IMG/VR virus record: IMGVR_UViG_3300017756_000047
Coordinates: 1 to 34,275 of that record
DNA: 34,275 bases
Source: a virus
Strand: one strand, 5' to 3'
A program made the translations under genes and the position numbers. The notes under the pieces were generated by a model that did no database searches, had not been told where the DNA came from, and worked only from the letters and a program-made list of their open reading frames with translations. Shown here one piece after another: positions 14,800-34,275 of the stretch; positions within the stretch are counted from its first letter, which is position 1; every line of letters begins with the position of its first letter.

Positions 14800-16806
14800 T
14801 TAAAATTTTATTTTGAATGTACTAGCTTGGTCATCATCTTGATTTGGTATATGCATTATGACTTCATAAGTATTACGCTTTACATTATAAGTCATTGAAT
14901 CTAATATGCAACTTACATCTTCTCTTAAAACAGTAGCACCAAAATCAATCCATATTTTATTGTGTAACCCTATAGGTTTATTTTCTAAATTATATAATTT
15001 ACCTTCATACCTAATAGAGTTCGTTCTGTAATCGTTTATAACTTGTTGTGATATAATTTCTTCTAATGATTTAACAAAACTAGCATTATCATCTCTTGGT
15101 CGTATAGCTTGAAATATATTTGTATTTCTATAATTATTGCTTGATAATTGTAATTCGCTTAATTCTAAAACACCTGTATCATTACTTGATGTTTTAATTC
15201 TTGAATATTCAAAACCATCAATAGAAGCAAATAAAGGTGTTCTTTTGTCGCCGTCTTTAATGTCCATATTCATAGTAATATTATCATAGTAAATAGCTTC
15301 TAAATGACCACTAACAGATGTTCTCGGCTCATATAAATCAATATACAATGTGCCAGTATATGGGAAACTGCCTAAATCATAACTAAATTCTTCCCAAGCA
15401 TCTGCATGATCAGCAACTTGAGTATTTATAGTAGCAGTAGTTGTCCAACTTTCTGAACTATTATTCCAATAATATGTTGGATCAGTTGGGGGTATTGGTG
15501 ATTCATCTTCTATTCTAACTTGCCATCTAAAACTAAATTCAGTTGTACTAGAATATGATGATGTACTTTCAAAATATGAATTAATTTTTAATGTATGTCC
15601 TCTGTTTGGGTTATTGGTTGCACCATAACCTTGAGTATATGATAATGTTTTTCTTGTGTTTGTGCTAGTTTGTGTTTGATCATTTTTAAAACTATTATTT
15701 CCTTGTTTAGAAAATTCACTTGACAAAGTACCAGGCGATGTTGTGCTTGTAGATGTATAAGTTGACCAGTTAGCTAAACCATTTTCAAAACCACTATTTC
15801 CTAAAACAGTAAAATTAGTTTTTAGATATTGAGACACATTATGAGTTATATTAAATCTTTTTAATGGTCGCAAATATTCTTTTGATAAGCTATTGTCTAA
15901 AGGTGTTAGGTCACTTGGCAGCTTATATAATACATCAATATTTGATGTTGATTGATATGTGCCTTGATAATTATATATTACAAATTTAGGCAACTCAGTT
16001 CCATTAGTAACTAAACTAGATGTTTCTGATGCTCTAATGCCAGTTGGCACAGTACCACCTTGTGCTGTTGACGCACTTGCATCTTTTACAGCTTGACCAC
16101 TATAACTTGAATTATTAATTATATACCATCTACCATATGATTGAAATATCCTTGCATTTGTTATCTTAAGTATTTGTTCTAAAATATGTTTTGCATTATT
16201 TATATCTAATTTTTCTTTTTGTAGATTGTATGGTGTTATGTTTATTATATCATAAATAGAATATAATGTCGAGCTTGGATTTCTAATAAAAATATCTTGA
16301 CTAACATAAATATCAAGCTCTAAATCTAAATTATTTAAACATTCAGTTATATAATATCTACCAGTTTGAATAGATGAACTAGTTGTGCTTAAAGGCATAT
16401 CAAAACCACTTAATGTACCTAAGCCATCTAAAGCTGTTAAAGTTATTGGAAAAGGTTTAGTTGTTACTGCTTCCCTGAATGAATCTGTTACTAGCCAACC
16501 TATCCAAAATAATTGATAATTGTTGCTTGTGTCTTTATAAAAAACTTTGACTTGATATTCTCTTTCATCTTCTTCATAAAAATTATCATAATTAGTGTCA
16601 TCAGTTTCGAATAAATTTATTTTACATTCTGATCCTCTAATTGGCTCATAAAAATTATCATCACCTTGCCAAGTTATAACACATGGCTCAGCAGCACCTA
16701 CTAGGTCGTAAACAGTACCAGAATAATTGTTTTTCCAAATTTCTATTTTTTTACCATTTTCTAAATCATCAGAAAACTCTAATATGTATTTAACACCATA
16801 TGCCAT
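14800..16806 (-). CDS. Baseplate/distal tail-like protein with carbohydrate-binding-like insertion
   Basis: A 668-residue protein directly after the tape measure, where siphophages encode the distal tail and hub proteins. The N-terminal 135 residues (MAYGVKYILEFSDD, GAAEPCVITWQGDDNF, PIRGSECKINLFETDD, FWIGWLVTDSFREAVTTKPF, ALDGLGTLSGF) match a form that I associate with tail-tip proteins of Bacteroidota phages. Residues about 337-512 look like an inserted jelly-roll of the carbohydrate-binding-module type: NSGFENGLANWS at its start, many Ser/Thr/Tyr, and HLEAIYYDNITM at its end. The C-terminus returns to the hub-like part (VKSLEEIISQQVINDYR, LGLHNKIW-type strands). It would sit at the tail tip and could bind surface glycans. 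It shares one base with the tape-measure start/stop boundary. Confidence 0.7.
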   Translation of the reverse strand: MAYGVKYILEFSDDLENGKKIEIWKNNYSGTVYDLVGAAEPCVITWQGDDNFYEPIRGSECKINLFETDDTNYDNFYEEDEREYQVKVFYKDTSNNYQLFWIGWLVTDSFREAVTTKPFPITLTALDGLGTLSGFDMPLSTTSSSIQTGRYYITECLNNLDLELDIYVSQDIFIRNPSSTLYSIYDIINITPYNLQKEKLDINNAKHILEQILKITNARIFQSYGRWYIINNSSYSGQAVKDASASTAQGGTVPTGIRASETSSLVTNGTELPKFVIYNYQGTYQSTSNIDVLYKLPSDLTPLDNSLSKEYLRPLKRFNITHNVSQYLKTNFTVLGNSGFENGLANWSTYTSTSTTSPGTLSSEFSKQGNNSFKNDQTQTSTNTRKTLSYTQGYGATNNPNRGHTLKINSYFESTSSYSSTTEFSFRWQVRIEDESPIPPTDPTYYWNNSSESWTTTATINTQVADHADAWEEFSYDLGSFPYTGTLYIDLYEPRTSVSGHLEAIYYDNITMNMDIKDGDKRTPLFASIDGFEYSRIKTSSNDTGVLELSELQLSSNNYRNTNIFQAIRPRDDNASFVKSLEEIISQQVINDYRTNSIRYEGKLYNLENKPIGLHNKIWIDFGATVLREDVSCILDSMTYNVKRNTYEVIMHIPNQDDDQASTFKIKF

Positions 16807-18875
16807 TATAATATTCTATCTCTGTTTTTATTTGCCCTTTGTAATGCTACAACTAAATCTTGTCCTTTTACAGTAAATGAGCCACCAACTTGTACTTGTG
16901 ATGAACCTCTTTCACCTATCATATTTTTAAGTTTGTCTAAAGGAGCTACAACCTCTGGATTGCTTCTTGCTCCGGGATATTCACCCATTAACCCCATAGT
17001 TGGTGTACTGATTATACCACCTTTTGCAAATTTCTTTGGTTTATCTATTTTACCAAAAGCACCTTTTACTGCTACTGCAGCACCAGCAAGTAAAGCCGGT
17101 AAAACAAATGCAGCAAGTGGTCCAAATGATTTAGCAGTTGCACCAGCAGATTCAGCACCAAACCCCATAGTTGTTGCTAAAGATGCACCTATGGCAGTCA
17201 TAGCAGTTTCTATAAGAACACCAGCAAAAGTTCCTAAAGCACTTTCACCAGCTCCTAAACCAGATGCAATACTATGACCCATATTAGTAAAAGTATTTTG
17301 TATAGATTGACCCATTTGTAATCCTATTTGTTGAAAAGCTAATAATCTTTCTTTAGTGCCATCTAATTTTTGATTTAAAAAATTCCCAGCTTCTTGTAGT
17401 TTTTGATCAAATAATGGCTTACTTTTTTTCATTCCCTCAACCATTTGTGCAATTGGATCAGTACCAACAGTTGCTAATCCAAAGCCAACTTTCATGTTAG
17501 TAAATTCTTGCATTTGACTGCCATCAAAGTTTCTTATAGTTTTTTGTTCTTTTTCTTGGAAAGCACTAACAGTTTTGACTTTTCTGTCTTGGTTTTCTTT
17601 ATTAGCACCACCTTTACCATTTAAACCCTCTAAATCTTTTAATGATTTAAGTAAATCTTCATTTGCTTTAGTTAATTTATCAGTTTCTTCTGTGTTTAAT
17701 TTAGTTTCTTCGGCAGCTTCTTTTTCTGCTTTAGCTTGACTACTTAATTGTAATGCAGCAAATTTTGCAGCATTTCCACCTGATTTAAATACATTCTTTA
17801 ATGTTTGCCATCCACTAACAAGTGGTGTCATTTTTTCACTTAATTTAACTACATAAGTGATTAATCCAATTATTGCTGTGGTTATTAATACAAATGGATT
17901 TAAGAGCATTGCCATATTCAATTTTAAAAATGCAGCTTTTACAATCAATAATCCACTACCTAAAGTTGTAAAGGCACTTGTAATAAATACTATTGCTTTA
18001 GTAAATGCAGCTACAGTCAATAATACTGGACCAATTGTAGTTGCAATACCAGCTATAATCAATATTGTTTTTTTTGTTGCTGGTGATAATGCTTTAAATT
18101 TTTCTGTAAGATTTTGTATAAATACAATAAATTGTTTTGTCTTTTCTTTTAAATCAAATGCTGTTACAATTTCAGTACCTAATTCAGCAAGTGCTATATT
18201 TAAGTTGTCTCTTAATGTAGAACCTAAACCACTTAAAGTTTGGCTTAAAGTTCCCATACCATTATGAAATTTACCACCCTCTGATGTGGCATCTTGAAAT
18301 GCTTTAAGTAAAACTGGGAAAGTTACAGCACCCTCAGACACCATGCCTTTAATTTCGCTCTTTGCAACTCCCATACTATTACTAAGCATATCAATAATAG
18401 GAACACCATTATTAATAAGTTGTAGTAAATCTTGTCCCATTAATCGACCACTAGCAGCAACTTGTGAGAAAGCAACTGTTATACCTTGTAAATCACCACC
18501 ACTAACAGCAGCAATGTCTCCAATAGCTTTAAGATGACTTGCAGCTTCATCGGCACTTATACCGAATCCCATCATTGTGTTATTAGCTTTTACTAATTGA
18601 TCTAATTGAAATGGTGTACCGGCAGAAAACTTGACAAGATTCTTAAATGCTTTAGCACCCTTTTCAGCACTACCAGTTAATACATTTAAGGTAGTTTGTA
18701 GCTTTTCAAACTTTGCAGCTTGTGCAATAGCTAATCCACCTACTGCAACTAAAGGTGCTGTTAATTTGGTAGATAAACTTTTGCCTAACTTTGCTGTCTG
18801 TTTGCTAAAGTTATTTAATTTAGCTTGTGCTTGTTTAAAACCAGTTAGCTGTAAATCTAATCTTAATTTTGCCAT
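16806..18875 (-). CDS. Tail tape measure protein
   Basis: A 689-residue protein placed after the G/GT chaperone pair, as usual. The N-terminus has the TMP domain pattern: LQLTGFKQAQAKLNNFSKQT, then FEKLQTTLNVLTGSAEKGAK (56-75), LMGQDLLQLINNGVPIIDML (145-164) and SEGAVTFPVLLKAFQDAT (180-197). A long hydrophobic region lies at about 270-345, followed by a Lys/Glu/Ala coiled coil (about 378-420) and a Gly/Ala-rich hydrophobic stretch near 545-620. At the usual 1.5 Angstrom per residue this predicts a tail near 100 nm, on the short side for siphophages. No lysozyme or peptidase domain is evident. Confidence 0.93.
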   Translation of the reverse strand: MAKLRLDLQLTGFKQAQAKLNNFSKQTAKLGKSLSTKLTAPLVAVGGLAIAQAAKFEKLQTTLNVLTGSAEKGAKAFKNLVKFSAGTPFQLDQLVKANNTMMGFGISADEAASHLKAIGDIAAVSGGDLQGITVAFSQVAASGRLMGQDLLQLINNGVPIIDMLSNSMGVAKSEIKGMVSEGAVTFPVLLKAFQDATSEGGKFHNGMGTLSQTLSGLGSTLRDNLNIALAELGTEIVTAFDLKEKTKQFIVFIQNLTEKFKALSPATKKTILIIAGIATTIGPVLLTVAAFTKAIVFITSAFTTLGSGLLIVKAAFLKLNMAMLLNPFVLITTAIIGLITYVVKLSEKMTPLVSGWQTLKNVFKSGGNAAKFAALQLSSQAKAEKEAAEETKLNTEETDKLTKANEDLLKSLKDLEGLNGKGGANKENQDRKVKTVSAFQEKEQKTIRNFDGSQMQEFTNMKVGFGLATVGTDPIAQMVEGMKKSKPLFDQKLQEAGNFLNQKLDGTKERLLAFQQIGLQMGQSIQNTFTNMGHSIASGLGAGESALGTFAGVLIETAMTAIGASLATTMGFGAESAGATAKSFGPLAAFVLPALLAGAAVAVKGAFGKIDKPKKFAKGGIISTPTMGLMGEYPGARSNPEVVAPLDKLKNMIGERGSSQVQVGGSFTVKGQDLVVALQRANKNRDRIL

Positions 18876-18905: not shown

Positions 18906-19247
18906 CTACTCGACACTTTTATCAGCTTTTAGTTTTTCAATTCTGTTTTTAAATTTTAAATATTGTTCTTTAGTTGACTTTGGTTTGCCTTTGCCTAAAT
19001 AAACATCTTGTGGCAAAGGAAATAACTTTTCAGGTGTAATCATTTGCCCTTTCTTATTACAATTAACATTGTAAAGCATTGTGGCTAAATATCTTGTTTG
19101 TTCCCAAGCTAAATTACACTTAATCATATGAGCTTCGCCCATTAAATGATTTTCTTTCCAAGTGTTTTTCCAAAAGATATCTGGTGTTATCCCAGCTTGA
19201 CCAATATAAAAATCAAGAATGCTTTCCCAAGTCAGCTGGGTATTTAC
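18906..19247 (-). CDS. Tail assembly chaperone extension (gpT-like part of a -1 frameshift product)
   Basis: This frame is open without a stop from 19247 to 18906 (113 residues) and has no start codon before 19142, but it continues in the -1 frame from the 128-residue chaperone. With the frameshift at 19247-19253 the fusion covers 19630-18906 and has 241 residues. The extension begins VNTQLTWESILDFYIGQAG, then ITPDIFWKNTWKENHL, the ITPD-FW-TWKE pattern typical of tail chaperone second frames. The Met at 19142 is internal to this pattern (HLMGEAHM), so an independent start there is improbable. As in lambda gpG/gpGT, the long form links the tape measure to tail tube protein during assembly. Confidence 0.85.
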   Translation of the reverse strand, partial: VNTQLTWESILDFYIGQAGITPDIFWKNTWKENHLMGEAHMIKCNLAWEQTRYLATMLYNVNCNKKGQMITPEKLFPLPQDVYLGKGKPKSTKEQYLKFKNRIEKLKADKSVE

Positions 19248-19253
19248 TTTCCC
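19226..19253 (-). promoter_or_regulatory. Programmed -1 frameshift site: GGGAAAG slippery heptamer and hairpin
   Basis: On the minus strand the chaperone frame reads GAG GGA AAG TAA, so G-GGA-AAG forms an X-XXY-YYZ heptamer (19247-19253), the same heptamer as in lambda G/GT, directly before the stop. Six bases later, CCCA and TGGG (19226-19240) can form a short hairpin, at the spacing found for frameshift stimulators. The -1 frame is open for 114 codons. Confidence 0.85.
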
Positions 19254-19630
19254 TCTTTAGTAGGTTTTGTAGTTTTTTTAATATTTCTTGGCACCCCCAT
19301 ATTTAAATCATTGCCTAATATTCTTGATTCCATCATTGCATTTACTATATCATTTAACTTTTCAGAATCAAAATCTTCGAGCCAAGCACCTACTGTATAA
19401 ATATTATAATTGATTTCGTTGCCTTGTTCTTGGTCGTTTGCTAATAATGCTGAATATATTAAAGCTCTTATTGTACTAATTGAAATACCATCTGTAAAAG
19501 CATCACCTATTTTGTCTAGTGATATATTTAATTCATCAGTAAAGTTTGACCAGAAATTCATTGAGAAATGCATAGTTCGCATTTTCCCACCTATTTTTAA
19601 GGTATAGTAACCTCTTTTTTTGTTTGCCAT
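19244..19630 (-). CDS. Tail assembly chaperone (gpG-like)
   Basis: A 128-residue protein from the ATG at 19628-19630. A longer reading from 19663 adds residues that look like untranslated leader, and the chosen start MANKKRGYYTLKIGGKMRTM begins with the beta-hairpin common in this family. It continues HFSMNFWSNFTDEL, ALIYSALLANDQEQG (a helix typical of TAC_1-like proteins) and ends KKTTKPTKEGK at the frameshift site. Position between the tail tube and tape measure genes fixes the role. A fraction of ribosomes should shift into the -1 frame to make the long form. Confidence 0.85.
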   Translation of the reverse strand: MANKKRGYYTLKIGGKMRTMHFSMNFWSNFTDELNISLDKIGDAFTDGISISTIRALIYSALLANDQEQGNEINYNIYTVGAWLEDFDSEKLNDIVNAMMESRILGNDLNMGVPRNIKKTTKPTKEGK

Positions 19631-19699: not shown

Positions 19700-20122
19700 T
19701 TATGATTTAGTAATTGCACCATTTACAGTAATTGAACCACTATAAGTTGCCGGAGATTCCATTTCAGCACTCATTTCTACTGAACTTAAAAATCCAGAAC
19801 CAGAGTACACAGCATCGCCAGTTTCAGCAGTTCCAAATTCCCATGATACAGCTCTACGAGCAATTAAGATATCAGCAAAATCAACTGGATTTGCATTGTC
19901 ATCATAAGCAATTAATCCTTCAAAGCTAATCTCACCACTTTTTACACCAGCAATAACTTCTTGAAACCCATTGCTATCTTTTGTAGTTGCCTCAGGCAAA
20001 TCATTTGAAAGTGTAAGTGTACAAGATGTTGAGTGTCCAATAGTAGTAGATGTTGCTATTGTTGTTCCATCTGTTAATTTAAGTAGTAAATCTGTTCCAT
20101 TAAATACGCCTGTTGTAGCCAT
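19700..20122 (-). CDS. Tail tube protein paralogue (TP901-1 type), second copy
   Basis: A 140-residue member of the phage major tail protein family. It aligns with the gene upstream: DLPEATTKDSNGFQEVIAGV here against DLPDATTKESLGWAEVIPGV there, then KSGEISFEGLIAYDDN against KSGIVSCECLTDYSD, and GSGFLSSVEMSAEMES against GEGFINSVDETAEFET. It begins with a typical GTDLLLKL strand. It is the copy adjacent to the chaperones, where the real tail tube gene usually is, and is possibly led by its own -7 box (20152-20159). One paralogue probably makes the tube and the other a minor form or a tail-completion ring. Confidence 0.85.
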   Translation of the reverse strand: MATTGVFNGTDLLLKLTDGTTIATSTTIGHSTSCTLTLSNDLPEATTKDSNGFQEVIAGVKSGEISFEGLIAYDDNANPVDFADILIARRAVSWEFGTAETGDAVYSGSGFLSSVEMSAEMESPATYSGSITVNGAITKS

Positions 20123-20171: not shown

Positions 20172-20639
20172 TTATACATCTTCCCAGTTATCTGATATAT
20201 CTTCCCATTTTTCAAAGATGTTTTCCCAAGTTCTACCCTCACTAGGGTCAGTTATAGTAAATACACCAGTCAGGTTTATTTCTAAGTTAAAACTATTAGC
20301 AGTTTCAAACTCAGCTGTCTCATCTACTGAATTAATAAACCCCTCACCTCTAACAATTAATTTAGGATTTACATTGTCTTTGAAAATAAAAGTTGCCTTT
20401 TCTTTAGTTAGCACCATATCGGCTAACTGCTCAAAATTTAATGTATCAGAATAATCAGTTAAACATTCACAACTAACTATACCAGATTTGACACCCGGAA
20501 TAACTTCTGCCCAACCTAAACTTTCTTTAGTTGTAGCATCTGGTAAATCTACATTAATGTTAAAGCTAGTGCTTTTAGAATGCCCTACAACTGTTGTATC
20601 TTTTAATAACAGAAAGCTAGTGGCATTAATAAGTGCCAT
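20172..20639 (-). CDS. Tail tube protein paralogue (TP901-1 type), first copy
   Basis: A 155-residue tail tube-like protein, homologous over its whole length to the 140-residue product downstream. Shared landmarks are the GHSKSTSFNINVDLPDATTK region (residues 19-38), EVIPGVKSGIVSCECL (45-60), and GEGFINSVDETAEF (98-111). It differs by a C-terminal extension after TDPSEGRTWE that is built of an imperfect Trp-Glu repeat: WENIFEKWEDISDNWEDV (about 138-155). It starts 1 bp after the stop of the coiled-coil gene. Function as the main tube protein or as a minor tail ring is open. Confidence 0.82.
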   Translation of the reverse strand: MALINATSFLLLKDTTVVGHSKSTSFNINVDLPDATTKESLGWAEVIPGVKSGIVSCECLTDYSDTLNFEQLADMVLTKEKATFIFKDNVNPKLIVRGEGFINSVDETAEFETANSFNLEINLTGVFTITDPSEGRTWENIFEKWEDISDNWEDV

Positions 20640-21243: not shown

Positions 21244-24200
21244 TTAAGAATTTATTTGAGATTTTAATAATTCAACCTCAGCTCTTAATTCTTGTACTGC
21301 TGCAACTAATAAAGGCACTAATTTTGCTTGATCAATACCTTGTGCTATAATTTCACCATCTTCATTTACAGCATCTTTTTTACCATGTATAGCTTCTGGT
21401 ACTACATCAGCAACTTCATGTGCTAAAAATCCATCAACTGTTTGTTCTGGTGTTAATGTAAAATTAAACCTTTTTGGTTGTAAATTATCTAACCTATCTA
21501 AAGCACCATTTAATTCAACTACATTTTCTTTTAATCTATAATCTGATGCTGATCCATAAAAAGTTGATGATCCATTAGTTGTTATATATCCAGTTTGTAC
21601 AGAGCCATAAATAAAATCAACATAACTAGGTGCTGTTGATCCACCAGCTAATCTTAAAAGCATTGCACAATCTGAGCCACTTGTTCCAGCATATACAAAT
21701 CTACCAGCAAAAACACCACTTGTTGATGAATAAGCATCAACTATATGCGATGGCATTGGTATTCCAGCAGCTACTCTGTCAGAATATAATGTACCATCTA
21801 TTTCAGCCGAACCACCAACATGAAGCTGATAACTGGGATTTGTTAAACCAATTCCTACGTTTCCATTCTGTAAAACGGTTAATCTATCTTGTCCTCCACT
21901 AGCAGTTTTTATACTAAAAGAACCAGCATTTTGTTCCATTTGAATAAACCCTGATAGATCATTTTTTTGACCCATTTGCATATAATCGCCACCAGCTCCA
22001 TCACCATTTGAGGCGTCAAAATACAATCTTGCATCCCCAGTTGATGAATTAGTTATTCCAATAGTAGTATTTGTAGAATCAGAACGATGAACATTTAATT
22101 TAAAATTAGGTGATGTCGTTCCAATTCCTACGTCTCCTGAGCTTCCTATATATAATCTTGAAGTGCCTGTCGTAGCAAATTGAATTTCAGTATCTCCAAA
22201 AACAGCTAATCTATTAGTAGAAGTAATATCATATAAACTTAAAACTTGTGAATTTCCTCCATTAGTTTTAAAACCATAAGTATTACCAGTTCCTAAAGTT
22301 CCTGTTAATTTTAAAAAATAATTACTTTCGGCTTGCTCGGTAATATGTAATTTAGCGTTAGGAGAAGTTGTTCCGATTCCGACATTTCCCTGAGGCAGTA
22401 GTTGTAAATCTGCATTTGCTGTTATTTTTAAATCTATTCCATCTGTTCCTATAGTACCCTTTTGTGAGCCACTATATTTAAAATTCATAAATCCAGTACC
22501 AGTAGTATTGACTGTAATATCCCCACCAGTTACATCAAGTTTTGAATCTGGTGATGTAGTATTGATACCTACGTTTCCTTGTAAATAATTTTTATCGCCT
22601 TGAACATAGATACCCCAAGCATTAGCACTTTTAGTTCCAGTATAAGTTCCATAAAACAAATATGAATTTGAAATGGTAGGTACTGCACCCTCATTGTTGT
22701 CAATAACTATTCTAGTACCAATTATATTATTATAAGTTAATGCAGTTTGTTCATCTATTTGTACTTCTCCATATATCGCAGTAGCATTATCAACATTAGC
22801 ATCTCTATTATTTGCAATAAAAACTTGACCATGTAAACCATAAGCATTATCAACATCACCATCATCTTGTACTTGTGCTACACCTCTAGTTCCATACAAA
22901 TTAGAAACACCACCACTTGCACTATTCGCATCATGTGTTGCTATACCATATGCTCCAACAACTTCTGCAGTTTTAGCACCAGTATAATTCGATTCAGCAT
23001 AAAAATAACCACCTCTTACTATATCAGCAAAACCACTATTTCTAGTATCTGATTTAATACCAATAATTCTGTGTTCATTAGTAGCATCACCATTAGCTGA
23101 TGAATCTAAATCTATTCTTATTCCAGTTTGTTCTGTATCTGTTGCATTAGATTTTGTTCCTGAGTAATTAGCATCAATAAATATTGCGTCTGATCCAGTA
23201 TCAGGATTATTTCTAGTATGCGAAACATCAACTGTTTTTGCAGTATCGCTATTTCCAGTAGATACAGTCAATTTATGACTAGGAGAAGTGACATTAATAC
23301 CTACGTTGCCTAAAGAGTTGATAGTCATTTTGGTACTGCCATTAAAATCAAAATTTAACAGATTAACTGGTGAATATCCAACGTCCCAATAATTACCTAA
23401 AGTATCACTTGCATTCGACTCTGCAAACCTTATAGTTGACGTTGCGGTCGAGGAAGAGGTATCAGAATCTCTTATAGTTAAAATAGGATTGTTTCCTACA
23501 ATTTCTAATTTAGTATCAGGCGAATCAGTTCCAATTCCTACGTTTCCGTCACTTAATATTACTAGCTTATCAGATGTATTTACACCAAATCTCATTTTGT
23601 TATCATTGTGTTGATAAGCAATATATCCAGCATATTCAGCAGTACCACTCGTTCCATCTGCAAAATGTAAAGCACCTGTATTTGCAGCTCCAGTTGCTAT
23701 TGTAATACCGTGATTACTACTTCCTCCAACTACTAAATCGTTTGCAGTAGAATAATAATCAGATGGATTTGATACTCCAATTCCTACTTTGCCGTCAACA
23801 ATAGTCATTACATTGGTGTTAGTTCCATCAACTTTTGTTCTAAAAGTAATTTGCCCATCATCAACATCGTGTCTTTTTATATCAAGAGAGCCATAGAAAG
23901 TTGAATCTCCATAACCAAATACTCGCATAACATATTCATCATCTGATGCACTTGTGTGAGTTCCTTGTACATATGCATAATCAGTTGATGTTAGTTCTAT
24001 TTTTCTTCCAGTAGATATATCGCCAGTTATAGTAACACCTGTATTTGTTGTTTCAAACTTTTTCGAGTTGTTATAGTATAAATCTACACTTCCATTATTT
24101 GTAAAAGTTGCTGCTGTTTTTGCTGTTGCATTAGTAGTAATTATAACTTGAGTTCCATTTGTATCAAGATATAAATTACCAGTACCAAGCTCTCTTATAT

Positions 24201-27200
24201 AACTATTACTACCATCGTGGTATATTTCTAAATCTGGAGTTGTTAAATCACCAAAATAGAGTTTATCATTATCTCCAAAATATGCATTACTTGTAAAATA
24301 AACATTACTTAAAAACTTTGATACTCCATCTATAAACAATTGACTAGCTGTAGAATCCCACTTAATACTAGCATCATTTGCTGTGTCGTTACCAAAGTAT
24401 AGTTTTAAATTATCTACAATGTGTGGTGATCTCCCAAATGGTACTGTGTTTGTAGAGCCATCTAACCTAAAGTATTCAATTACATCACCAGAACCATTGT
24501 CAGTTCTAAATATAATATCTTCATCATCTGCATAATTAGTTATATATAAACTACCATTATGGTTTTCAATGTTACCATTGCCTGATGTCGAATTATGGTA
24601 TAATCTTATGTCATTATTTTCACCTAAACGTAATTCTACATTATCATTAAATCTCATTAATCTATTTACATAGATTCTTTCATCATCACCATTAATTTCT
24701 ATATAGGTTGCATTACCTCCAGAGCCATCATCTGCTTGAAAATACATAGCAGAATTATTTGCTTCTGCTCTAAAATACATACTACCAATCTCCCCATCTA
24801 TAAATGAACTACTACCATTATGCTGTATTCTTAATCCAATAGAATCACCCATTCTTATTTGGTCACCATTTCTAAAATAAAAATCAGCACCATCAATAGT
24901 AATATTTCTAGTTAAAAGGTTAGGAACATCATTTGCCCTACCAGCACCAAATACTTTTATCAATCCATTACTTGCATGAGATTTTATTACAATAGCAATC
25001 TTTTGTACTTCTTCTGTTGTTGCAATTGGTTTAGTAGCTGTAAATTGGCCAGCAGTTGCAGAAACATATAACTCATCACCGACACTAAAAGCAGATGTAT
25101 CAATGCCTTGTACAGTACCAAACATTACTGCCTTACCCTCATCATCATCTAATAATGCCTCATTTAAAACACCTATTGCTGGCATTCTACCACTATTAGC
25201 ATCTGCTGCAACAACCTCAATAACATTTCCACTTAATGTTCCAGTTGGCTCAGCATGAACAACAGTACCTTTTGCTAAAGTAGCACCATGAACATTTTTA
25301 ACATCAACCTCTAATCTTTTAGCTGTGTCTGCTTCAAAATCAATCCAGTTAGTACCAGTTCCAGTAGATGATAATAACTGTCCACTTGTACCAGCATCAC
25401 CATCAGAATCTTTTATAGCACCTACAACAGCTAAGTTATCAAGGAATTTTGATTCGCCATCAATAAATAGCTCATTTGCTGTTGAATCCCATTTTATACT
25501 TGCATCGTTAGCAGTTTCATTTCCGAAATATAACTTGACATTATCGACAATGTGAGGTGATCTGCCGAAAGGAATAGTATTTGTTGAGCCATCTACCCTA
25601 AAATATTCTATAGTGTCTCCACTACCATTATCTGATTTAAATACTATATCTGCGGCATCTGTAGTTTGTTCTATAATTAAATTACCTTTTTCGTTTTTAA
25701 TATAGCCATCAGTGTCATCGTGATATATTTGTAAATCAGAATCAGTACCAAAATTTATTTTTTGGTCATCTGCCATTATAATATCATTAGCACCTGAGGT
25801 ATTACCAACCCCTAAAACATTACTTAATGATTGTGCTGGTATTAAATTATCATCTACATATTTTTTAGATGCTGCGTGAGCATCTGCTGTTGGTGTTTCT
25901 GGAATAGTAACATTATTAGCAAAAGTTGCATTTTGTGACTCATCAATAGTTAATGCTGTTGTTAATGTACCAGAATTATCTGTTTGTATTAATATTTTTG
26001 ATGGATAATTATTAGCACTCCATCCAGATACTGCTTGAACTCTAATTCTAGCACCAGAATTAAAAGTTCCATCTGTTGGATCATCTCCTGAAAAATTAAG
26101 TGAACCAATATGATTGTCAGTACCGATTGTTGTATCATTTCTTTGTAGTGATAAAATACCACCAGCTGTTGCTCTAACTTTAGTATCAACATTTGAGACA
26201 ACAGAGCTTGAATAAAGCTCCATTATTTGTGGTGTATCAACTGCAACTCCACTTGTTACATCATCTTTTAATTCAAAAGTCATTTTAGCAGTAGTGCCAT
26301 CAGTTGTAACTACAATACGACCAGAACTTCCATCTTGCTCAGGTGTTCCTGAAACATGATTAAATGTAACATTAGCATTTCCATAACCATCATTGTGAGT
26401 TAATGCAACACCACCATTTCCTAAACCAGCAATAATATAATTGTTACTTGCTATTTGACCATTTACCTCAAGTTTATAGTCAGGAGCTGTTACACCAATA
26501 CCAACTTTGTTATTTGTAGCATCTGCATAAATTAAATTGGTATCAACTGTAAAATTAAAAGCATTAACACTTACACCAGCTGAATCAACAGAAAATTTTG
26601 CATTTGAATTATAAATTAAATCAATACCACCAGTACCATCATAAATAGTTATACCATTATTTTGTTGTGAATTATTTATTGTCCAATCACCAGATGATTC
26701 TGTAATTGTTAAATGGTCAGAACCACTTGTTAATTCTAATGTATCTGATTTTAATAACCCACTAAAAGTACCAGTAGTACCACTTATAGCACTACCAGTA
26801 ATATTGCCAAAAGTAACATTACTAGTAGTTGAAACATCTTGACCAATAGCAATTTCGCCATTAGTTATTGTAACTCCAGTACCCTCAGTAAAACTAGCTC
26901 TGGCTCTAGCAGTTGTAAAATATAAATTAGTTGTACCCTCACTTAAATCATCTGTGTCTTTACTACTTAAATCAAGATTAGCACCAGTTTGTAGATTAAC
27001 CCTTGCATCTGCTCTTGCATTAGTATAATATAAATTTGTACCCTCTGCTAAATTAGTTGTTGTATGATTAGATAATGAGCTAACAGTACCAGTTACATTA
27101 CCCTCTAAATTAGCTACAAGAGTACCAATTGTATATCCACTAGCTGATGTATCAACAGTTGTTGTTGGCTCAACAGTAGTGCCTATAAATAGCTTAAACT

Positions 27201-27606
27201 TATCATCACTAGCATCATTGAAAAAACCTTTATATTTTGTACCAGTTGCTACATATTTACCGAACAAACCAATATCTAAAGTGTTAGCTGTATTATCTTT
27301 TGCTAATTTTATTATTGGATCTTCAACTGCAAGATCTTGTACATTCAAATATGTAAGTGTACCATTTACTGTAAGATTACCAGATACTATTAAATTACCA
27401 CCAATTTTAGCATTACCACTTGTATGAAACTGATAAGCTGGTGAAATACCAATACCTAATCTAGTTCCAGATAAATATAAAGGTGAATCGTTACCTAAAC
27501 CATCACTTAAAAGTTTTGGAGTTGCTGTTAAGTTTGAATTGTCTCCAATTTTGATTATTGCATTATAAGTATCTTGAACCCTTAAACCAGTATATGATGT
27601 TGCCAT
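21244..27606 (-). CDS. Giant tail fibre/spike with C-terminal S74 intramolecular chaperone
   Basis: At 2,120 residues it occupies nearly a fifth of the genome. The N-terminus (TSYTGLRVQDTYNAIIKIGD) should attach to the tail. The body is beta-rich fibre with nine imperfect VGIGTTSPNAKLHI-like motifs (for example LGIGISPAY, VGIGVTAPDYKLEV, VGINTTSPDSKLDV, VGIGTTSPNFKLNV). Residues about 760-894 form a distinct beta domain (KGTVVHAEPTGTL, GVLNEALLDDDEGKAVMFGT, FSVGDELYVSATAGQFTATK). Two about 70-residue blocks are duplicated. The last 105 residues are a Peptidase_S74 domain: ASDYRLKENV with the Ser/Lys autocleavage pair (near residue 2019), LQPKRFNFT, DGFLAHEVADVVPEAI, then a coiled coil LVPLLVAAVQELRAEVELLK. 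Trimer folding followed by self-cleavage is expected. It is the likely host-range determinant. Confidence 0.92.
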   Translation of the reverse strand: MATSYTGLRVQDTYNAIIKIGDNSNLTATPKLLSDGLGNDSPLYLSGTRLGIGISPAYQFHTSGNAKIGGNLIVSGNLTVNGTLTYLNVQDLAVEDPIIKLAKDNTANTLDIGLFGKYVATGTKYKGFFNDASDDKFKLFIGTTVEPTTTVDTSASGYTIGTLVANLEGNVTGTVSSLSNHTTTNLAEGTNLYYTNARADARVNLQTGANLDLSSKDTDDLSEGTTNLYFTTARARASFTEGTGVTITNGEIAIGQDVSTTSNVTFGNITGSAISGTTGTFSGLLKSDTLELTSGSDHLTITESSGDWTINNSQQNNGITIYDGTGGIDLIYNSNAKFSVDSAGVSVNAFNFTVDTNLIYADATNNKVGIGVTAPDYKLEVNGQIASNNYIIAGLGNGGVALTHNDGYGNANVTFNHVSGTPEQDGSSGRIVVTTDGTTAKMTFELKDDVTSGVAVDTPQIMELYSSSVVSNVDTKVRATAGGILSLQRNDTTIGTDNHIGSLNFSGDDPTDGTFNSGARIRVQAVSGWSANNYPSKILIQTDNSGTLTTALTIDESQNATFANNVTIPETPTADAHAASKKYVDDNLIPAQSLSNVLGVGNTSGANDIIMADDQKINFGTDSDLQIYHDDTDGYIKNEKGNLIIEQTTDAADIVFKSDNGSGDTIEYFRVDGSTNTIPFGRSPHIVDNVKLYFGNETANDASIKWDSTANELFIDGESKFLDNLAVVGAIKDSDGDAGTSGQLLSSTGTGTNWIDFEADTAKRLEVDVKNVHGATLAKGTVVHAEPTGTLSGNVIEVVAADANSGRMPAIGVLNEALLDDDEGKAVMFGTVQGIDTSAFSVGDELYVSATAGQFTATKPIATTEEVQKIAIVIKSHASNGLIKVFGAGRANDVPNLLTRNITIDGADFYFRNGDQIRMGDSIGLRIQHNGSSSFIDGEIGSMYFRAEANNSAMYFQADDGSGGNATYIEINGDDERIYVNRLMRFNDNVELRLGENNDIRLYHNSTSGNGNIENHNGSLYITNYADDEDIIFRTDNGSGDVIEYFRLDGSTNTVPFGRSPHIVDNLKLYFGNDTANDASIKWDSTASQLFIDGVSKFLSNVYFTSNAYFGDNDKLYFGDLTTPDLEIYHDGSNSYIRELGTGNLYLDTNGTQVIITTNATAKTAATFTNNGSVDLYYNNSKKFETTNTGVTITGDISTGRKIELTSTDYAYVQGTHTSASDDEYVMRVFGYGDSTFYGSLDIKRHDVDDGQITFRTKVDGTNTNVMTIVDGKVGIGVSNPSDYYSTANDLVVGGSSNHGITIATGAANTGALHFADGTSGTAEYAGYIAYQHNDNKMRFGVNTSDKLVILSDGNVGIGTDSPDTKLEIVGNNPILTIRDSDTSSSTATSTIRFAESNASDTLGNYWDVGYSPVNLLNFDFNGSTKMTINSLGNVGINVTSPSHKLTVSTGNSDTAKTVDVSHTRNNPDTGSDAIFIDANYSGTKSNATDTEQTGIRIDLDSSANGDATNEHRIIGIKSDTRNSGFADIVRGGYFYAESNYTGAKTAEVVGAYGIATHDANSASGGVSNLYGTRGVAQVQDDGDVDNAYGLHGQVFIANNRDANVDNATAIYGEVQIDEQTALTYNNIIGTRIVIDNNEGAVPTISNSYLFYGTYTGTKSANAWGIYVQGDKNYLQGNVGINTTSPDSKLDVTGGDITVNTTGTGFMNFKYSGSQKGTIGTDGIDLKITANADLQLLPQGNVGIGTTSPNAKLHITEQAESNYFLKLTGTLGTGNTYGFKTNGGNSQVLSLYDITSTNRLAVFGDTEIQFATTGTSRLYIGSSGDVGIGTTSPNFKLNVHRSDSTNTTIGITNSSTGDARLYFDASNGDGAGGDYMQMGQKNDLSGFIQMEQNAGSFSIKTASGGQDRLTVLQNGNVGIGLTNPSYQLHVGGSAEIDGTLYSDRVAAGIPMPSHIVDAYSSTSGVFAGRFVYAGTSGSDCAMLLRLAGGSTAPSYVDFIYGSVQTGYITTNGSSTFYGSASDYRLKENVVELNGALDRLDNLQPKRFNFTLTPEQTVDGFLAHEVADVVPEAIHGKKDAVNEDGEIIAQGIDQAKLVPLLVAAVQELRAEVELLKSQINS
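24310..24519 (-). repeat. Diverged internal duplication in fibre gene, copy 2
   Basis: This block corresponds to 25441-25650 with an offset of 1,131 bp (377 codons). Both encode IEYFR(V/L)DGSTNT, PFGRSPHIVDN, KLYFGN, TANDASIKWDSTA and LFIDG with nearly the same amino acids, while the third codon positions differ widely. The duplication is therefore old and kept at the protein level. Confidence 0.85.
25441..25650 (-). repeat. Diverged internal duplication in fibre gene, copy 1
   Basis: Partner of 24310-24519 (see there). In copy 1 the encoded block includes GDTIEYFRVDGSTNTIPFGR and NETANDASIKWDSTANELF. It lies just N-terminal of the distinct beta domain (about residues 760-894), which the two copies flank. 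Confidence 0.85.
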
Positions 27607-33876: not shown

Positions 33877-34275
33877 TTATTTTAAATTATTTAACAAGTA
33901 TTTATAAACATCAATCTCTTGCTTGACTTCGACTGGCTCAGTAGTTTCCTCAACTGGCTGAGTAGCATTAATGAAATATGTTTTGAGTTTGATAATTTCG
34001 GATTCTAGGGCATATCCCATATCATCTGAGATATTGCCTTTTCTAATTAATTTACAGATATTGTCATATCTTTTGTAAATCTGATCAATATTAGTTGTGC
34101 CTTTGACATCTAATATCTTAGCTTGATCATTTGCTGCTAAAGTAACAGCACTAATTTCATATAGTTTTACTTCTTTTATTTCCCTATAATCACCTTTTTG
34201 TTCTTTTACTATTGGCATAATACCAACAGAATTTTCAGTAATTACTCCAGCTTTCATAAGTTCAATAACATCAGT
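33877..34275 (-). CDS. HK97-family prohead protease (3' part; 5' part is at 1-405)
   Basis: This is the C-terminal part of the same gene described at 1-405; 34153-34275 repeats 1-123, so the piece unique to this side is 33877-34152 and encodes residues 136-226. It begins at the catalytic Ser136 of EISAVTLAAN. The rest is a linker, a helix DQIYKRYDNICKLIRKGNI and an acidic tail (EETTEPVEVKQEIDVY) that is probably a scaffold-binding or self-cleaved end. It is followed by the capsid gene after 11 bp. Confidence 0.93.
   Translation of the reverse strand, partial: TDVIELMKAGVITENSVGIMPIVKEQKGDYREIKEVKLYEISAVTLAANDQAKILDVKGTTNIDQIYKRYDNICKLIRKGNISDDMGYALESEIIKLKTYFINATQPVEETTEPVEVKQEIDVYKYLLNNLK
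34153..34275. repeat. Terminal direct repeat, right copy
   Basis: Identical to positions 1-123. See the left copy: it marks the point where the circular genome was opened, inside the prohead protease gene. Confidence 0.95.

Follow-up and report, generated by a model that had tools for sequence, protein, structure and literature searches.

A probable lambda-like G/GT frameshift signal with a covarying downstream stem in a family of uncultured siphophages

We analysed IMG/VR virus record IMGVR_UViG_3300017756_000047 over its whole length of 34,275 nucleotides (the window) and found, on the minus strand, a tail assembly chaperone locus that very probably uses a lambda-type -1 ribosomal frameshift to make a G protein of 128 residues together with a minor GT fusion of 241 residues, with slippage raised by a 3' stem-loop. 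The locus carries an in-phase slippery heptamer that is invariant among its close relatives, a second (T) frame whose coding capacity is conserved, and a downstream stem whose arms covary in the sense RNA (Table 1). From these observations we infer that ribosomes slip at this site in vivo, that the stem stimulates slippage, and that G and GT have the roles set out below. The frameshift mechanism is already known; what is new is the stem and the turnover of the heptamer.

Table 1. Coordinates of the predicted frameshift site and of neighbouring tail genes in the window
Feature	Position	Strand	Remarks
G-like tail assembly chaperone ORF, 0 frame	19244-19630	-	128 aa; ATG at 19630; stop TAA at 19246-19244
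Slippery heptamer G_GGA_AAG	19247-19253	-	X_XXY_YYZ phase; abuts TAA stop
T-like extension, -1 frame	18906-19247	-	113 codons, then stop; read from GTA at 19247
Spacer of 6 nt between heptamer and stem	19241-19246	-	holds 0-frame stop TAA; length fixed in colinear relatives
Stem 5' arm CCCAGCU	19234-19240	-	covariation; uniquely covarying helix
Stem-loop interior and apical loop, ~36 nt	19198-19233	-	inner GAC/GUC pairs 19233-19231 with 19201-19199; A19198 bulged
Stem 3' arm AGCUGGG	19191-19197	-	covariation; in minimum-energy fold of window RNA, z -3.3
CCCA/TGGG hairpin of the sequence-only reading (rejected)	19226-19240	-	letters present, 19240-19237 with 19229-19226
Tape measure protein, directly downstream of T extension	16806-18875	-	phrog_9959, E 2.9e-44
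Two adjoining major tail protein paralogues, upstream of G	19700-20122 and 20172-20639	-	phrog_1407, E 1.4e-24 and 2.3e-16

The G reading frame ends ACT AAA GAG GGA AAG TAA on the minus strand, and the heptamer is in the right phase directly before the stop, as had been stated in an earlier reading of the window made from its letters alone (the sequence-only reading). The open -1 frame described there was also confirmed; it runs from the heptamer to the stop at 18906, with 113 codons counted rather than 114. GGGAAAG occurs four times in the whole window on both strands; the copy 25 nt downstream of the site has the wrong phase for the -1 frame. The locus sits between the major tail protein genes and the tape measure gene, which is the setting of a lambda-type G/GT pair. 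Similarity of G to tail families is weak (phrog_2115, 'tail protein', E 2.6e-6), and no Pfam or NCBIfam chaperone family matched the G ORF. Its predicted structure is of low confidence (pLDDT 59) and gave a weak BFVD match to 'tail assembly chaperone' (E 0.07) and an uninformative PDB search, while the T part matches a family of unknown function. The two upstream paralogues are possibly the tube protein and a second or minor version of it.

Neither G nor T had a match in 50,697 phage records (blastn at the DNA level and tblastn), and hundreds of relatives are present in IMG/VR. Our first set comprised 155 distinct G/T loci and a further clade supplied 67; the second frame is -1 in every first-set locus examined for phase and likewise in the 67. 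Alignment of these homologues, which the sequence-only reading had proposed as a check, found GGGAAAG invariant in 104 colinear close homologues. The first G of the heptamer is the third base of a codon that specifies five different amino acids in these loci (GAG 64, GTG 17, AAG 15, CAG 6, GCG 2). In the remainder of these G genes GAA is commoner than GAG (537 to 186) and AAA than AAG (623 to 101), so that AAG makes up ~14% of Lys codons, and GGA accounts for 154 of 825 Gly codons (~19%). Because the heptamer is invariant despite a varying preceding codon and the disfavoured GGA, AAG and GAG codons, its conservation, which is far beyond chance, reflects selection on nucleotides rather than on protein, in line with the earlier suggestion that selection retains this GC-containing heptamer in an AT-rich genome. 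Adjacency of the stop to the heptamer is not needed, since in 17 of the 104 loci the 0-frame stop lies 12 nt further downstream.

The wider family has exchanged this heptamer for others. Within the first set, GGGAAAG was found in 106 loci and A_AAA_AAA in 39; the remaining ten, together with loci found later, form a clade with C_CCA_AAG as the conserved in-phase heptamer. In most members of this sister clade (L204-L214, L298-L361) A_AAA_AAC stands directly before an overlapping in-phase C_CCA_AAG, forming a double slippery tract, and in L354 and L355 C_CCA_AAG alone remains, directly before the stop. The heptamer of L362 and L363 is A_AAA_AAG. All of these heptamers have AAA for their second triplet and so place a lysine codon in the A site. 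In E. coli, ribosomes are highly prone to shift at G_GGA_AAG and at C_CCA_AAG alike (PMC5009743). That sister clades swap the heptamer yet hold the in-phase -1 geometry, along with its invariance among close relatives, strongly supports programmed -1 frameshifting at G_GGA_AAG in this putative tail chaperone, as the sequence-only reading had proposed.

Downstream of the heptamer, RNAalifold applied to 67 distinct sequences yielded a single stem, alignment columns 14-20 with 57-63, corresponding to 19240-19234 with 19197-19191. All 469 of 469 stem cells (67 sequences, 7 bp) are paired, with 45 double changes. Pair 14-63 is G-C in 43 sequences and C-G in 24, and pair 18-59 is A-U in 39, G-C in 21 and G-U in 7; C at column 59 never occurs without G at column 18. 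Each of the haplotypes (G-C, A-U), (C-G, A-U), (C-G, G-C) and (G-C, G-U) of these two variable pairs is present, which shows that the pairs have changed independently of each other. G-U pairs occupy 71 of 728 cells when the stem is read as sense RNA, and the antisense strand would have A-C mismatches in their place; this argues for an element of the mRNA rather than of the DNA or an antisense transcript. The heptamer is thus followed, at a short fixed spacing, by an RNA structure backed by compensatory changes.

The covariation score of the stem was 0.378 versus 0.218 ± 0.013 in shuffles, which ignore relatedness, and at most 0.071 with partners slid. Since the shuffles ignore relatedness, we used three further controls: a tree, a helix scan and synonymous resampling. 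With the arms left out of tree building, pair 14-63 was found to change at least nine times, both sides together. Recombination between phages might carry a whole stem haplotype along, so that these nine changes may not all be independent; counted strictly, six of six independent comparisons on well-supported branches agree (p 0.03). We also scanned all possible helices, which share one tree, over 220 nt that start 60 nt upstream of the first base of the heptamer and end 160 nt downstream of it; the summed double-change frequency was 0.64 for the stem and 0.067 for the next best candidate. The stem is therefore the only covarying helix in the 220 nt scanned, and no pseudoknot after the heptamer was found there. 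Folding of individual homologues joined the bases 6 nt past the heptamer to a segment ~36 nt further on, with interior pairing that differs among relatives. In L276 and L277, which have an extra codon, a shifted CCAACC or CCAGCC faces GGTTGG when read by eye.

A second frame could also be reached without ribosomal slippage. T might be expressed as a gene of its own, from Met19142 or through reinitiation past the G stop, and ATG 19142 does open an ORF of 78 codons. In the 35 codons between the heptamer and Met19142, however, codon position 3 of the T frame is about twice as variable as positions 1 and 2, no stop interrupts any of 76 distinct sequences, and synonymous and nonsynonymous differences are equal in number, against ratios of ~1:6 and 1:9 in the other two frames. 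The residue at the Met19142 position is mostly Leu (Leu 83, Met 18, Ile 2; n = 103), and 78 of the 103 loci have no ATG, GTG or TTG between the heptamer and that point. The second ORF thus has no conserved start of its own, as is typical of lambda-type loci. With protein-level conservation of the T frame already evident ahead of Met19142, and that Met itself unconserved, these alignments exclude an independent T start as a general mechanism; the sequence-only reading had named such starts in homologues as a finding that would count against a frameshift, and they were not borne out. A separate start, which would also leave the invariance of the heptamer without a reason, is therefore very improbable. 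We consider slippage of RNA polymerase in place of the ribosome just as improbable a source of the second frame. Nine consecutive A in some relatives (GAA AAA AAA ACG) could permit it, but GGGAAAG in the window is no homopolymer run, the heptamers hold the phase of tandem slippage, and an RNA stem lies at the distance expected for a ribosome.

If ribosomes do slip here, the heptamer alone might suffice as in lambda, with the stem a by-product of codon choice or serving another role such as mRNA stability. In lambda, G/GT frameshifting is inefficient, and some tailed phages seem to shift frame with no stimulatory signal (PMC5009743). Inner pairing is weaker in a few relatives (L009, L020, L023), whose minimum-energy folds differ from the conserved stem; both stem arms are coding, so that part of their conservation is protein constraint. 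Codon choice accounts poorly for the pairing, however: synonymous resampling with the clade's own usage produced the full seven pairs in a mean of 8% of draws (maximum 15%), whereas all 66 of 66 sequences have them. Covariation is strict at Gly and Gln wobble positions, and the 6-nt distance from heptamer to stem is kept also in relatives whose 0-frame stop lies 12 nt later. Frameshifting by the heptamer alone is thus unlikely, although less so than the other alternatives weighed here. The small CCCA/TGGG hairpin that the sequence-only reading had placed six bases downstream fared differently. Its letters are present in the window and in one sub-clade, but 78.7% of its cells pair in the 67 relatives versus 78.3% in shuffles, no double changes occur, and 45 of the 67 cannot form its first pair. 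TGGG is lost in relatives such as L080, L114 and L217, which keep the heptamer and the long stem. The proposed hairpin is therefore neither conserved nor covarying, and we give it hardly any credence as a stimulator; its CCCA strand is the start of a different, larger stem, whose 3' arm lies outside the coordinates given in that reading.

In the stimulated frameshift that we favour, the tRNAs paired to GGA and AAG would move back in tandem onto GGG and AAA at G_GGA_AAG, and the ribosome would go on in the T frame, bypassing the adjacent TAA stop. The stem-loop (seven outer pairs and an interior of ~36 nt) begins 6 nt past the heptamer and would meet the ribosome while the heptamer is decoded, a contact that probably raises the slip rate. 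In the arrangement of heptamer, spacer and stem, this site matches known stimulated sites. By analogy with lambda, G would coat the tape measure protein and the T domain would recruit the tail tube protein, and the slip rate would therefore set the ratio in which G and GT enter assembly.

The site resembles lambda G/GT in that G_GGA_AAG stands near the end of G in an identical phase, the genes follow one order (major tail protein V, G, T and tape measure H in lambda) and the -1 extension is similar in size; window G and lambda G are likened by heptamer, phase and gene order, not by protein sequence similarity. Unlike in lambda, the stop codon abuts the heptamer, and a conserved covarying stem follows, whereas the 62 nt following the lambda heptamer show no excess structure (z -0.20 versus shuffles, against -3.31 for the equivalent window RNA). 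The gpG:gpGT ratio in lambda is ~30:1, and its role has been reviewed (PMC5009743); slippage at the lambda site is altered by tRNA-Lys modification (PMC7618472). Phage TP901-1 gpG/gpT shares the GGGAAAG heptamer, there tested by mutation, and the same proposed role in siphophage tail assembly, but infects another host group, and the parts of its description available to us mention no downstream RNA structure (PMC4493119). G-T frameshifts are also known in the haloarchaeal viruses HCTV-1, -2 and -5 (PMC5009743), whereas here the turnover occurs within one alignable family of more than 150 loci. Signals stimulated by stem-loops or pseudoknots in retroviruses, coronaviruses and some phage capsid genes share the heptamer, short spacer and downstream RNA structure; the window differs in having a simple stem with a long interior and no pseudoknot supported by covariation, and in lying in a phage tail chaperone. 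Our searches of the accessible literature turned up no account of a tail-chaperone site with a covarying stem.

Taken together, we lean towards the view that a 3' stem-loop dedicated to stimulating the tail-chaperone frameshift arose in a large lineage of uncultured siphophages, probably of Bacteroidota, and that the wider family swaps heptamer and structure with the -1 geometry held. Tail-chaperone frameshifting is among nature's most widespread recoding events, and lambda-type sites, including that of lambda itself, were thought to do without a stem-loop stimulator. If our view is right, swapping presumably keeps G:GT at the ratio needed with host ribosomes and a tRNA-Lys unlike those of E. 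coli. The more than 100 natural relatives and at least four alternative heptamers form a ready series for testing G:GT tuning and the need for a stimulator, and the covariation result corrects the structure suggested by reading a single sequence.

The long stem as such was not found in the A_AAA_AAA and C_CCA_AAG clades. Both show more stable folds than their synonymous resamples (median z -1.7 and -2.3, respectively), with structures that vary among members within each clade. Four loci of the A_AAA_AAA clade (L161, L163, L168, L171) have a compact hairpin, GCGU(A)...(U)ACGC, starting 6 nt past the heptamer, and in other members CCCUA faces a distant UAGGG. Structures thus seem to turn over within that clade.

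A Bacteroidota host, as assumed in the sequence-only reading, is plausible on indirect grounds. For the terminase, the best matches come from Bacteroides and Parabacteroides phages (~39% identity), a Shine-Dalgarno motif was found at 0 of 34 gene starts examined, the upstream regions are 50% A, and the G+C content of the window is 30.6%. Together these features fit Bacteroidota without proving it. Window G had no match among bacterial genome contigs, and a profile search of these returned three metagenome-assembled contigs with unreliable host labels (L368-L370), which carry the in-phase heptamers GGGAAAC (L368), GGGAAAG (L369) and GGGAAAG with AAAAAAG (L370). They are labelled as Gammaproteobacteria, Woesearchaeota and Rhodobiaceae metagenome-assembled genomes, and are more likely misbinned phage contigs than true hosts.

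Bases 1-123 of the window recur unchanged as bases 34153-34275, which marks the record as a complete genome, circular or terminally redundant, with a length of 34,152 bases (~34.15 kb). Elsewhere in it, positions 21244-27606 hold a single tail-fibre-like ORF of 2120 residues that matches phrog_9942 and has many VGIGTTSP-like repeats; its C-terminal end resembles an intramolecular chaperone domain.
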